DNA of 41,102 nt from an uncultured Bacilli bacterium (GTDB lineage Bacteria > Bacillota_I > Bacilli_A > RF39 > UBA660). The translations under genes were made by a program, and so were the position numbers. The DNA lies in the NCBI GenBank assembly GCA_947623685.1, contig CANQHF010000008.1:1-41102 (forward strand). Direction: 5' to 3'. Within the stretch, counting starts at the first letter, position 1; each line of letters begins with the position of its first letter. Shown here in pieces: positions 6,691 through 11,418 of the stretch. The notes under the pieces are model-generated. The model saw only the letters and a program-made list of their open reading frames with translations. It had not been told where the DNA came from and ran no database searches.

Positions 6691-6720
6691 CAAAAAAAAG
6701 AATAAACTAAAATTTATTCT
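6691..6720 (-). terminator. Rho-independent terminator downstream of the 6737-7420 gene
   Basis: AGAATAAA(6699-6706)/TTTATTCT(6713-6720) stem followed on the minus strand by a T8 tract. Confidence 0.65.
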
Positions 6721-6736
6721 CATATGTTTTTATTTT

Positions 6737-7420
6737 CTATGAATCAGTTGTACTATACGTTAAGGTTATATCTCCAAACTCAACATCAAAATCGCCATCT
6801 GCAACAAAAGCGTTAATATAATAATAAATAGCAATAGCAATCTGTTTAGAAGCACCTTTTTCTAAAGGATGATCTGTTATATTATCTTTCGTATCTGCTA
6901 AAGCATTTATACCCCAACTATTACCAGGGACACCATCATAATATATTTGAAGTACTATGCTTGCACAAGCTTTATCAACTAGTTCTTGTGATGTTCCTTC
7001 TTTAGCAGTACATTTTTTACTTCCAAACTCAATTTTCTTTAAATATGCTGTATATTTTCCTTGATTTGTTACAAAAAATCGCCATTCAACAGTTTGATCT
7101 GGACCAGTAAACGTTGCTTTTAAATTACTAATAGTCGGGTGTGCCGGATTACTATTATCTATTGTTGCAGTAGTTCCTGTCGCATTACCTCTTATATAAC
7201 CAGTACCAATAGGATCAGTTGCAACAGTCCAGCTTGAACTTGAAAACAAAACTTTAAAGTCTGATGGATCTGGTGTTACTGTTGCAGTTGAATTAATATC
7301 TAGATTTTTAGAAAATGCTGAAAATCCTATTGATAATCCTATTACTCCAACCATAAGCACCATGATTATTATTATTTTAGAGTTTTTATTATATCTTTTT
7401 CTTGTTCTTTTACTTTTCAT
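6737..7420 (-). CDS. Secreted/surface protein with SipW/TasA-like signal region (paralog A)
   Basis: RTRKRYNKNSKIIIIMVLMVGVIGLSIGFSAFSKNLDINSTATVTPDPSDF; two conserved Cys (KKCTAKEGTSQELVDKAC); about half-identical to the next gene; SD ggtgg. Confidence 0.75.
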   Translation of the reverse strand: MKSKRTRKRYNKNSKIIIIMVLMVGVIGLSIGFSAFSKNLDINSTATVTPDPSDFKVLFSSSSWTVATDPIGTGYIRGNATGTTATIDNSNPAHPTISNLKATFTGPDQTVEWRFFVTNQGKYTAYLKKIEFGSKKCTAKEGTSQELVDKACASIVLQIYYDGVPGNSWGINALADTKDNITDHPLEKGASKQIAIAIYYYINAFVADGDFDVEFGDITLTYSTTDS

Positions 7421-7455
7421 TTGTTTTCCACCTTTTTTTTTAATTTACTATGTTT

Positions 7456-7483
7456 ATAATATCACTAACCCCCCCCCGGTCAA
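7456..7483 (-). promoter_or_regulatory. Promoter with poly-G9 spacer (putatively phase variable), paralog A
   Basis: Minus strand TTGACC(7483-7478)-GGGGGGGGG(7477-7469)TTAGTGA-TATTAT(7461-7456); 16-nt spacer; TGN extended -10. Confidence 0.75.
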
Positions 7484-7587
7484 GTTTTTTGATGAGTTGT
7501 GGAAAACAAATTGAAAAATCGTTTTAAAAAAAACATACTATTTGGGATTCACATCATTTTGTATGCTTTATTGTTTTAATTTATTGT

Positions 7588-8280
7588 TTACGAATCACTT
7601 GAACTATATGTTAAGGTTATATCTCCAAACGTAACGTCGAAGTCTCCATCTGCTACTGCTGCATCAGTATTTGTATAATCATTCCCTATCCAAATTGTAA
7701 CAGGCTCAAAAACTCCTTTTGCTAATGGATGATTAGTTATAGTGCGCGTTTCAGCAACATCCCTTAAATAATTAGGATTACTAGAATCGCTTAAATTGAA
7801 AGATAATAAGAATTCAATCTTTCTACAAGCATCATCAACTAAATCTTGCGATGTTCCTGGTTTTGCAGTACATGTTTTATCTCCAAATTCTATTTTCTTT
7901 AAATATGCTGTATATTTTCCTTGGTTTGTTACATAAAATTCCCATGCAGCTGATTGTCCTGAATTAGTAAACGTAGCTTTCAATCCAGTTATTTTTGGAT
8001 GTGATGGATCATTATTATCTATTGTTGCAGTAGATCCAGTTGCAGTGCCATCGCCCCAACTAAATTCCAAATTTCCATCTACCACACTATCTTTTGAACT
8101 TGAAAACAAAATTTTAAAGTCTGATGGATCTGGCGTTACTGTTGCAGTTGAATTAATATCTAAATTTTTAGAAAATGCTGAAAATCCTATTGATAATCCT
8201 ATTACTCCAATCATAAGTACCATGATTATTAATATTTTAGTGTTTTTATTATATCTTTTTCTTGTTCTTTTACTATTCAT
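7588..8280 (-). CDS. Secreted/surface protein with SipW/TasA-like signal region (paralog B)
   Basis: Same N-terminus (KRTRKRYNKNTKILIIMVLMIGVIGLSIGFSAFSKNLDINSTATVTPDPSDFKILFSSS) and C-terminus (VADGDFDVTFGDITLTYSSSDS) as paralog A. Confidence 0.75.
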   Translation of the reverse strand: MNSKRTRKRYNKNTKILIIMVLMIGVIGLSIGFSAFSKNLDINSTATVTPDPSDFKILFSSSKDSVVDGNLEFSWGDGTATGSTATIDNNDPSHPKITGLKATFTNSGQSAAWEFYVTNQGKYTAYLKKIEFGDKTCTAKPGTSQDLVDDACRKIEFLLSFNLSDSSNPNYLRDVAETRTITNHPLAKGVFEPVTIWIGNDYTNTDAAVADGDFDVTFGDITLTYSSSDS

Positions 8281-8313: not shown

Positions 8314-8341
8314 ATAATATCACTTACCCCCCCCCGGTCAA
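8314..8341 (-). promoter_or_regulatory. Promoter with poly-G9 spacer (putatively phase variable), paralog B
   Basis: Minus strand TTGACC(8341-8336)-GGGGGGGGG(8335-8327)TAAGTGA-TATTAT(8319-8314); 16-nt spacer; TGN extended -10. Confidence 0.75.
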
Positions 8342-8379
8342 GTTTTTTAGTGAGTTGTGGAAAACAAATTGAAAAATCG

Positions 8380-8408
8380 TTTACATATATTTTTTATTAT
8401 TGTATAAT
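8380..8408 (+). promoter_or_regulatory. Sigma-70-type promoter of small RNA
   Basis: TTTACA(8380-8385)-17 nt-TATAAT(8403-8408), no CDS downstream on the plus strand. Confidence 0.7.
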
Positions 8409-8414
8409 TTAATT

Positions 8415-8503
8415 AGTGAGAGCAACCTACTAGGCTAGTTTGCTTTCCTAGAGATTCTAGGAGAAGTTACTACCCCCTTGGGATAGTAACTTCTCTTTTA
8501 TAT
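8415..8503 (+). ncRNA. Putative ~85-nt small RNA, candidate type I antitoxin, ending in a strong terminator
   Basis: Starts ~7 nt after TATAAT; internal hairpin CCTAGA-gat-TCTAGG; terminator GAGAAGTTACTA/TAGTAACTTCTC followed by TTTTATATTTT. Confidence 0.6.
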
Positions 8504-8505
8504 TT
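8461..8505 (+). terminator. Rho-independent terminator of small RNA (convergent with the small peptide gene)
   Basis: 12-bp stem gagaagttacta-cccccttggga-tagtaacttctc then ttttatatttt. Confidence 0.8.
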
Positions 8506-8578
8506 TAAGTATTAGCATTGCTAATAATAAAATTAAAAGTATGTTTATTACTTTAAGAAATATGTTTTCTTTTTTCAT
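8498..8578 (-). CDS. 26-aa hydrophobic peptide, candidate type I toxin (absent from ORF track)
   Basis: Translation MKKENIFLKVINILLILLLAMLILKI*; purine-rich SD region aaggaaaggcggtg upstream; an in-frame ATG at 8584 is an alternative start. Confidence 0.6.
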   Translation of the reverse strand: MKKENIFLKVINILLILLLAMLILKI

Positions 8579-8747
8579 AAGCATCACCGCCTTTCCTTTG
8601 CAAGAAAAAACGGAAAGTTAAACTAGCCCAAATATAGGTGCCCTCATATTAATATTTAGCCATAACTTTTTAAATCCCCCTAAAAATTTTTAAAAAATTA
8701 AAAAAAAATTAACGTATTATACGTTAATCATTTATATATATTGTTTT

Positions 8748-9861: not shown

Positions 9862-11418
9862 CTATTTGACATTTTCTATTTCTTTTATTTTTTTATCTTT
9901 ATCAATTCTTTCAAATAATATTTCTGGTTTCATATTATCATAAGTATTATTTTCTTTAAAGATTAATGATTTATCGCTGGTGTTTAATTGTTTTAATATT
10001 TCATCAGATGTTTTTGTTAAAAATGGATTTAAAGCGTTTGCACACACCCTAATTGATTCTAGCAAATTATATAAAACTGTTTGTAATCTATCTTTTTTAG
10101 TTTCTTCTTTAGCAAGTTGCCAAGGCATTGTTTCATCAATGTATTTATTACTACGTCTTAATACTTCAAATATTTCATCAAGAGCAAAACCAATTTCTAA
10201 ATTATCCATTTTCTTTTCTAACCTAGAATCAAGAGCGTTAACCATTTTAATAAGTTCATCATCTATTTTTTCATTTACTTTTTTATTAATAATACTTCCA
10301 TTAAAATATTTATTAGCCATCGTAATTGTTCTATTAACCAAGTTGCCTAAAGTGTTTGCTAAATCCGCGTTAGTTCTTTCAATTAATAATTCATAAGTTA
10401 AATTACCATCATTTGCATATGGTATTTCATGAAGTACATAATACCTTACCGCATCAACACCAAATAACTCTACTAAATCATCAGCGTATATGGTATTTCC
10501 TTTACTTTTACTCATTTTATCTGAATTAGTTAAAAGCCAAGGATGTCCAAATACTTGTTTAGGAAGTTCTAATCCTAAACTCCATAAAAAGCATGGCCAG
10601 TAAATGGTATGAAATCTTATTATATCTTTCCCAATTAAATGAAGATCCGCAGGCCATAAATATTTAAATTCATCGCTAGATCCGTCTGGATCATAACCTA
10701 TGTTAGTAATATAATTAGTAAGTGCATCAAGCCATACATATACAACGTGTTTTTTATCCATATCAACTGGTATGCCCCAATCAAATGAAGTTCTAGAAAC
10801 ACATAAATCTTGTAATCCTGGTTTTATAAAATTATTTAACATTTCGTTTTTTCTTGATTCAGGTTTTATGAAATTAGGATGTGATTCAATATATTCTACT
10901 AATTTATCTTGATATTTCGATAATCTAAAAAAGTAAGCTTCTTCTTTTTTTTCTTCAACGAATCTACCACAATCCGGACACTTACCATCAACTAATTGTG
11001 ATGATGTCCAAAAGCTTTCGCATGGTGTACAATAAAGTCCTTTATATTCTCCTTTATATATATCACCATTTTCATACATTTTATCAAATATTTTTTGAAC
11101 TATTCTTTCATGGTTAGGATCAGTTGTTCTAACAAATTTATCATATGAAGTGTTCATAATATCCCAAATTCTTTTTATTTCATTTGATACATCATCAACA
11201 AATTCTTTAGGTGTTACACCCTTTTCTTTTGCTTTTAATTCAATTTTTTCACCGTGTTCATCAGTACCAGTTTGAAAATATACATCATAACCTTTCATTC
11301 TTTTGTATCTTGCAATTGCATCCGCTAAAACAATTTCATAAGTATTTCCAATGTGTGGTTTACCTGACGTATAGGCTATTGCCGTTGTAATATAATATTT
11401 TTTATCCATAATTAGCAC
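9862..11418 (-). CDS. metG: Methionyl-tRNA synthetase (short form lacking the C-terminal tRNA-binding domain)
   Basis: YYITTAIAYTSGKPHIGNTYE (HIGH region), CPDCGRF zinc knuckle, DKMSKSKGN (KMSKS). Confidence 0.96.
   Translation of the reverse strand: MLIMDKKYYITTAIAYTSGKPHIGNTYEIVLADAIARYKRMKGYDVYFQTGTDEHGEKIELKAKEKGVTPKEFVDDVSNEIKRIWDIMNTSYDKFVRTTDPNHERIVQKIFDKMYENGDIYKGEYKGLYCTPCESFWTSSQLVDGKCPDCGRFVEEKKEEAYFFRLSKYQDKLVEYIESHPNFIKPESRKNEMLNNFIKPGLQDLCVSRTSFDWGIPVDMDKKHVVYVWLDALTNYITNIGYDPDGSSDEFKYLWPADLHLIGKDIIRFHTIYWPCFLWSLGLELPKQVFGHPWLLTNSDKMSKSKGNTIYADDLVELFGVDAVRYYVLHEIPYANDGNLTYELLIERTNADLANTLGNLVNRTITMANKYFNGSIINKKVNEKIDDELIKMVNALDSRLEKKMDNLEIGFALDEIFEVLRRSNKYIDETMPWQLAKEETKKDRLQTVLYNLLESIRVCANALNPFLTKTSDEILKQLNTSDKSLIFKENNTYDNMKPEILFERIDKDKKIKEIENVK

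Follow-up and report, generated by a model that had tools for sequence, protein, structure and literature searches.

The window analyzed here is a 41,102-nucleotide stretch of DNA from an uncultured bacterium of the candidate genus Aphodocola, whose genome is represented by a 1.24 Mb assembly in 65 contigs (95.6% complete). Two paralogous genes for secreted proteins are found on the minus strand of this window. Paralog A (6737..7420, ATG at 7420) encodes a protein of 227 aa, and paralog B (7588..8280) encodes a protein of 230 aa with 65% identity to A. The promoter of paralog A reads TTGACC-G9-TTAGTGA-TATTAT at positions 7483-7456 of the minus strand, with a spacer of 16 nt. The -35 element TTGACC is located at 7478..7483, the G9 homopolymer at 7469..7477, and the extended -10 element TGA-TATTAT at 7456..7464, within which the TATTAT hexamer occupies 7461-7456. 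A Shine-Dalgarno-like GGTGG is present at 7428..7432, and a DnaA-box 9-mer, TTTTCCACA, is found at 7498..7506, 14 nt upstream of the -35 element, all on the minus strand. The layout of TTGACC, TATTAT, GGTGG, and ATG with a 16-nt spacer was thus recovered exactly as described in the original prediction, in which the extended TG motif and the DnaA box of this promoter were absent. A terminator-like hairpin followed by a T-run lies 3' of paralog A (6692..6721, minus strand; -6.9 kcal/mol, z -3.1); this hairpin was not reported by the GC-stem scan.

The same promoter precedes paralog B on the minus strand, with the 9-mer TTTTCCACA at 8356..8364, the -35 element TTGACC at 8336..8341, the G9 homopolymer at 8327..8335, and the extended -10 element TGA-TATTAT at 8314..8322. 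In both proteins, an N-terminal membrane helix is combined with a domain predicted to be beta-rich (model pLDDT 82). No Pfam match was obtained for either paralog. The search of NCBIfam with the window protein returned only a weak match below the cut-off, the sequence search of the PDB returned no match, and the fold search with the model returned nothing significant (best E 2e-3, query TM 0.25).

The GC content of the window is 26.7%. Two G9 tracts were counted in the window and none in 100 dinucleotide-preserving shuffles of it, in agreement with the earlier statement that such a tract is unlikely to arise by chance. A scan of the window with the -35/-10 hexamer consensus gave 12 sites, relative to 11.5 expected from the shuffles, and hence no excess. 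Because shuffled sequence matches the two hexamers about equally well, the identification of the promoter rests on conservation among 111 promoters of the genus. The TTGAC, TGn-TATTAT, and NAACAT elements are conserved across these 111 promoters from 13 species, which strongly supports the proposed placement of the G tract between the -35 and -10 elements. TG precedes the -10 hexamer in 109 of the 111 promoters, the hexamer is TATTAT in 100, and the G residues are always on the coding strand.

The 111 poly-G promoters are distributed over 13 genomes of the genus, all of which are consensus assemblies from metagenomes, with a single assembly for each species. The genome containing the window has the most, with 33 complete promoters and one further tract truncated where contig C39 ends (approximately 34 in total). 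The element had originally been read as a property of one gene. This reading was incorrect, as the element and its DnaA box are shared by paralog B and by a genome-wide class of promoters. Nearly all runs of at least eight G in this genome fall inside a poly-G promoter, as do 106 of the 113 tracts of at least eight G in the 13 genomes. The 33 tracts of the source genome consist of 28 with G9, two with G7, one with G8, and two with G10, and the corresponding spacers are 16 nt (22 promoters), 17 nt (9), 15 nt (1), and 14 nt (1). Across the genus (n = 111), tracts of 7, 8, 9, 10, and 11 G were counted 5, 14, 60, 24, and 8 times, respectively. In a short spacer class (n = 92), TTGAC is followed by no more than two bases before the tract, and the spacers are 13-18 nt, with 55 at 16 nt and 23 at 17 nt. 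In a second class (n = 19), TTGACNNN precedes the tract and the spacers are mostly 19-20 nt. Some ten other genera in the family contain one or a few poly-G promoters each. A viral origin of the promoter was considered and rejected, as the pattern of box, -35 element, and G7 was absent from viral contigs.

Many gut metagenome-assembled genomes outside the family (L047-L158), including Clostridia, Faecalibacterium, Spirochaetaceae, and others, also have TTGAC separated from an extended -10 element by poly-G spacers. These lack a DnaA box, include some chance matches, and often precede genes for lipoproteins or secreted proteins, with several copies per genome in some cases. A second type of poly-G promoter (L056/L168, G013:C6, and others) has a -10 element of TATAAT and a DnaA-box-like AATCCACA at the probable start. 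A G16 run at a contig end (L165, G013:C2:190043) is probably a sequencing artefact.

Of 107 promoters, 82 have the sequence TTWTNCACA on the promoter strand at a distance of 5-26 nt upstream of TTGAC, relative to 0.14 expected from the rate in the window; the opposite orientation was found in two of the 107. Both the position and the orientation of the box are fixed relative to the poly-G promoter, and the usual distance to TTGAC in the short spacer class is 13-14 nt. In the second spacer class, TTGAC is approximately 3 nt nearer the upstream box, and the distance from the box to the -10 element is still near 35-36 nt. The same 9-mers as at the poly-G promoters, TTTTCCACA and TTATCCACA, cluster within approximately 210 bp upstream of dnaA in the source genome, and this cluster is probably the origin. 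When this genome was searched for the box, TTGA, and the extended -10 element with the spacer ignored, essentially only poly-G promoters were returned; two matches without a G run look like chance. The motif suggests that DnaA binds to the 9-mer box.

The genes under poly-G promoters are mainly surface or secretion genes, with acetyltransferase-like and sigma-like genes as exceptions. A second family of approximately 550-580 aa has an N-terminus similar to that of the window proteins. The first gene of a WXG100 (type VII) gene cluster (L010 2-3218, G000:C18) is driven by a poly-G promoter and encodes a protein of 82 aa. On contig C39 (L016 99-2137), a SipW-like signal peptidase gene, whose product scores above the TIGR02228 cut-off, lies directly 3', on the same strand, of a substrate-like gene driven by a poly-G promoter. 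A SipW/TasA-type identity was considered for the window protein; the genome has this peptidase, and the protein itself gave the weak NCBIfam match noted above and none in Pfam. In related species the same promoter is found ahead of genes for RpoD-like sigma factors, an acetyltransferase, and pilin-like proteins. RpoD-like sigma factors with long C-terminal extensions are directly under poly-G promoters at L174 (G013:C17:12496), L282 (G008:C28), L283 (G006:C5), and L288 (G010:C42). On contigs C9, C10, C19, C23, C24, and C2 of the source genome, shorter sigma factors were observed that resemble, by eye, sporulation SigF/G and SigE/K.

Tract lengths were compared between closely related copies. 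The promoters at C1:61930 and C19:8495 are followed by 350 nt with 99.1% identity, yet one has G7 (spacer 14 nt) and the other G9 (spacer 16 nt). Five paralogous promoters with closely similar flanks in a relative from another genus (G319) have tracts of 9, 9, 10, 11, and 12 G. Within genomes, the tract length differs in 12 of 28 pairs with no more than one mismatch over 45 flanking nt; these pairs are not independent, and the excess of pairwise tract change is moderate. In the three genomes compared, promoters with the nearest flanks share a tract length no more often than chance predicts (0.75 vs 0.77, 0.18 vs 0.34, and 0.47 vs 0.40), whereas the four bases beside the tract track the relatedness of the flanks in two of the three. 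At a coarse scale, by contrast, a Mantel test was positive for two of these genomes, which counts against slippage. One inserted G had been predicted to give a 17-nt spacer, and this fits the paralogs at C14:24275 and C23:200, which have G10 and 17 nt; six paralogs of the source genome attain 17 nt through one extra base ahead of G9.

Orthologous loci show shifts in tract length with little alteration of the spacer. For the first gene of the WXG100 cluster, the spacer is 17 nt with C-G9 in the source genome, 17 nt with G11 in G006, and 16 nt with G8 in G147, and at the acetyltransferase locus it is 17 nt in three species. The tract length and the length of the rest of the spacer are negatively correlated (rho -0.49, within-genome permutation P 0.004), but this correlation arises in part by construction, because replacement of C by G at the border makes the tract longer and the remainder of the spacer shorter; it was not used as proof of compensation. 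In the family of the window proteins, 12 of 13 promoters have G9, and the A-run before GGTGG varies from 7 to 9 among members with an uninterrupted A-run while the G run remains at 9. The tract length therefore appears constrained, since 28 of the 33 tracts in the source genome are G9 while the A-run of the leader varies. In about a dozen relatives, genes of the same kinds retain the promoter with its G run interrupted or missing; the interrupted tracts are presumably locked. MutS is encoded in 17 of the 18 genomes examined, and loss of mismatch repair was rejected as the source of tract variation.

The best-supported mechanism, which we consider somewhat favored by these data, is that slippage in the G run of the spacer tunes the distance between the -35 and -10 elements and thereby expression, as phase variation. 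The tract would serve as the spacer of a conserved, extended -10 promoter of the sigma-A type, which the lineage may have copied ahead of many surface and secretion genes together with a DnaA-box 9-mer at a fixed upstream place. A pure G run would slip during replication, and each G gained or lost would alter both the -35/-10 spacing (14-17 nt in the source genome, with an optimum of about 17 nt) and how far the DnaA-type box lies from the -10 element. Each gene could then drift independently toward higher or lower expression, which would give approximately 34 contingency loci. The control is probably graded and not strictly ON/OFF, because an extended -10 element lessens the dependence on the -35 element. 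From sequence, we infer both slippage within a clone and an effect of the tract on transcription. The concentration of 78 of the 92 short-class spacers at 16-17 nt supports spacing tuned by slippage. The presence of MutS counts against slippage, as it would damp slippage in mononucleotide runs.

The phase-variable promoter originally proposed therefore stands in part: near-identical copies do differ in tract length, but the predominance of G9 in the source genome and the interrupted tracts in relatives weigh against it. The suggested comparison across related genomes gave lengths of 7-12 G, with mostly G9 in the source genome itself. A uniform G9 in consensus sequences is compatible with switching, because tprL of Treponema pallidum mixes lengths though 9 G dominates (PMC7864442). 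A broader reading, offered tentatively and judged rather improbable, is that the approximately 34 units (surface, type VII, and signal-peptidase-linked) constitute a single regulon with a DnaA box and a slippery poly-G tract in nearly every promoter. Stochastic switching would then be layered on control by DnaA (replication or cell cycle), and slippage would also shift the helical phase between DnaA and RNA polymerase.

The main rival to slippage-tuned spacing is that these promoters form a co-regulated class in which the G-rich spacer has a fixed function, with its length held by selection and no switch. The spacer could act through a stiff G:C spacer geometry, or through contact with RNA polymerase or a regulator, together with the DnaA-type box. 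This explanation is a serious possibility, though not the expected one. It is consistent with G9 at 28 of the 33 promoters while nearby A-runs vary, with the invariable placement of G on the coding strand, and with interrupted G-rich versions (GGGGAGGGGG, GGGAAGGGGG, and AGGTAGGGGGG) that retain similar spacers at paralogous or orthologous genes. The box also remains near 35-36 nt from the -10 element when TTGAC lies 3 nt further upstream. Tracts of 7-12 G between close copies, including the 99%-identical pair, and tract lengths that do not track relatedness argue against a fixed length. Furthermore, a pilin-type operon has the box, -35, and -10 elements without a G run, so the run is not required. 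Alternatively, the tract may have been inherited with a duplicated promoter and have little effect, slipping neutrally within the tolerance of the extended -10 element. Extended -10 promoters tolerate changes in the spacer, and these promoters spread with duplicated modules. This account is nevertheless unlikely, given that G runs are confined almost perfectly to promoters in AT-rich genomes, that the spacers are tight at 16-17 nt, and that poly-G spacers recur in unrelated lineages ahead of genes for secreted proteins and lipoproteins.

Recognition of the promoter class by a dedicated alternative sigma factor, with the G run as part of its site, is very improbable. Several species do have RpoD-like paralogs under the same promoter, and the source genome has eight sigma-region matches, but TTGAC and TGn-TATTAT are elements of the housekeeping type. 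This candidate was rejected since the source genome, the richest in poly-G promoters, has only the standard RpoD and shorter sigma-like proteins, with no RpoD-like paralog in its assembly (95.6% complete). Contig ends near poly-G promoters are more frequent than expected (4/34, 4/22, and 5/15), and one G16 is found at a contig end, as might result from a sequencing or assembly artefact. Contig breaks are expected at repeated promoters, and an artefact is refuted by the recurrence of the element with its full flanks in independently assembled genomes from 13 species, which leaves it a negligible probability.

Spacer slippage in promoters of surface-protein genes is already known. In porA of Neisseria meningitidis, a poly-G tract lies between the -35 and -10 elements, and strains or phase variants with 9-11 G differ in PorA level (PMC3639595). 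The homopolymeric spacer is alike, whereas porA is one experimentally demonstrated gene of a Gram-negative pathogen, with no shared promoter class or DnaA box described (PMC3639595). Promoters of T. pallidum surface-protein genes (tp0126, tprL, and tprE/G/J) also contain poly-G; the tract of tp0126 separates the -35 and -10 elements, for which 17 nt is optimal, and that of tprL is mostly 9 G but ranges from 7 to 11 within isolates (PMC7864442). The tprL tract overlaps the -10 region and hence does not act as a spacer, and this spirochaete has fewer loci and a CRP homolog as the partner instead of a DnaA box. For porA and tp0126, spacer tracts of similar length to those found here change transcription (PMC3639595, PMC7864442). 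In the vlp genes of Mycoplasma hyorhinis and vmm of M. mycoides, ON/OFF expression is tied to the length of a short promoter repeat, and every vlp gene is transcribed separately and carries a tract of its own (PMC10502178). These mycoplasma sets likewise encode surface proteins with the repeat inside the promoter, but the repeat is poly-A (vlp) or a dinucleotide (vmm), the products are lipoproteins, and no DnaA box is described (PMC10502178). In nadA/NadR of N. meningitidis, repeat length also alters how far a regulator site lies from the core promoter (PMC2791445), although there a TAAA repeat lies upstream of the core promoter and a repressor mechanism has been demonstrated.

Surface-gene sets with their own repeat-bearing promoters, and the action of repeat length through regulator spacing, are thus established; the genome-wide scale, the lineage, and the pairing with a DnaA box are new. 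The literature covered, which was partial, contained no description of poly-G spacer promoters in this lineage, on a comparable scale, or combined with a DnaA box. Aphodocola is named in a single paper of it. It likewise contained no report joining RF39 and Tenericutes with phase variation, or joining a DnaA box and a transcription factor with a surface-protein promoter and regulon. If the proposed mechanism is correct, phase variation by promoter slippage, known mainly in pathogens and mycoplasmas, would extend genome-wide to a large lineage of uncultured gut commensals and would account for the ability of a 1.2-Mb genome to vary an extensive surface repertoire. Given the conserved DnaA box, it can be asked, and tested, whether surface expression depends on the replication state. 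The poly-G spacers in other gut lineages suggest that the device is under-recognized in commensals, and it can be searched for in existing metagenome reads.

Two additional features were observed in the window. A T-box leader (RF00230; 11667-11871, minus strand) is present upstream of a methionyl-tRNA synthetase-like gene (9862-11418). Upstream of paralog B, a divergent unit at 8380-8600 contains a promoter-like TTTACA-17-TATAAT on the plus strand with a short RNA region ending in a hairpin, and a 28-aa hydrophobic open reading frame, MLMKKENIFLKVINILLILLLAMLILKI, on the minus strand. The unit is reminiscent of a type I toxin-antitoxin pair, and no Rfam family was found for it at or above the cut-off. 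Full or partial copies of it are located upstream of seven other poly-G promoters of the source genome and of two in G017, with 92% identity at one.
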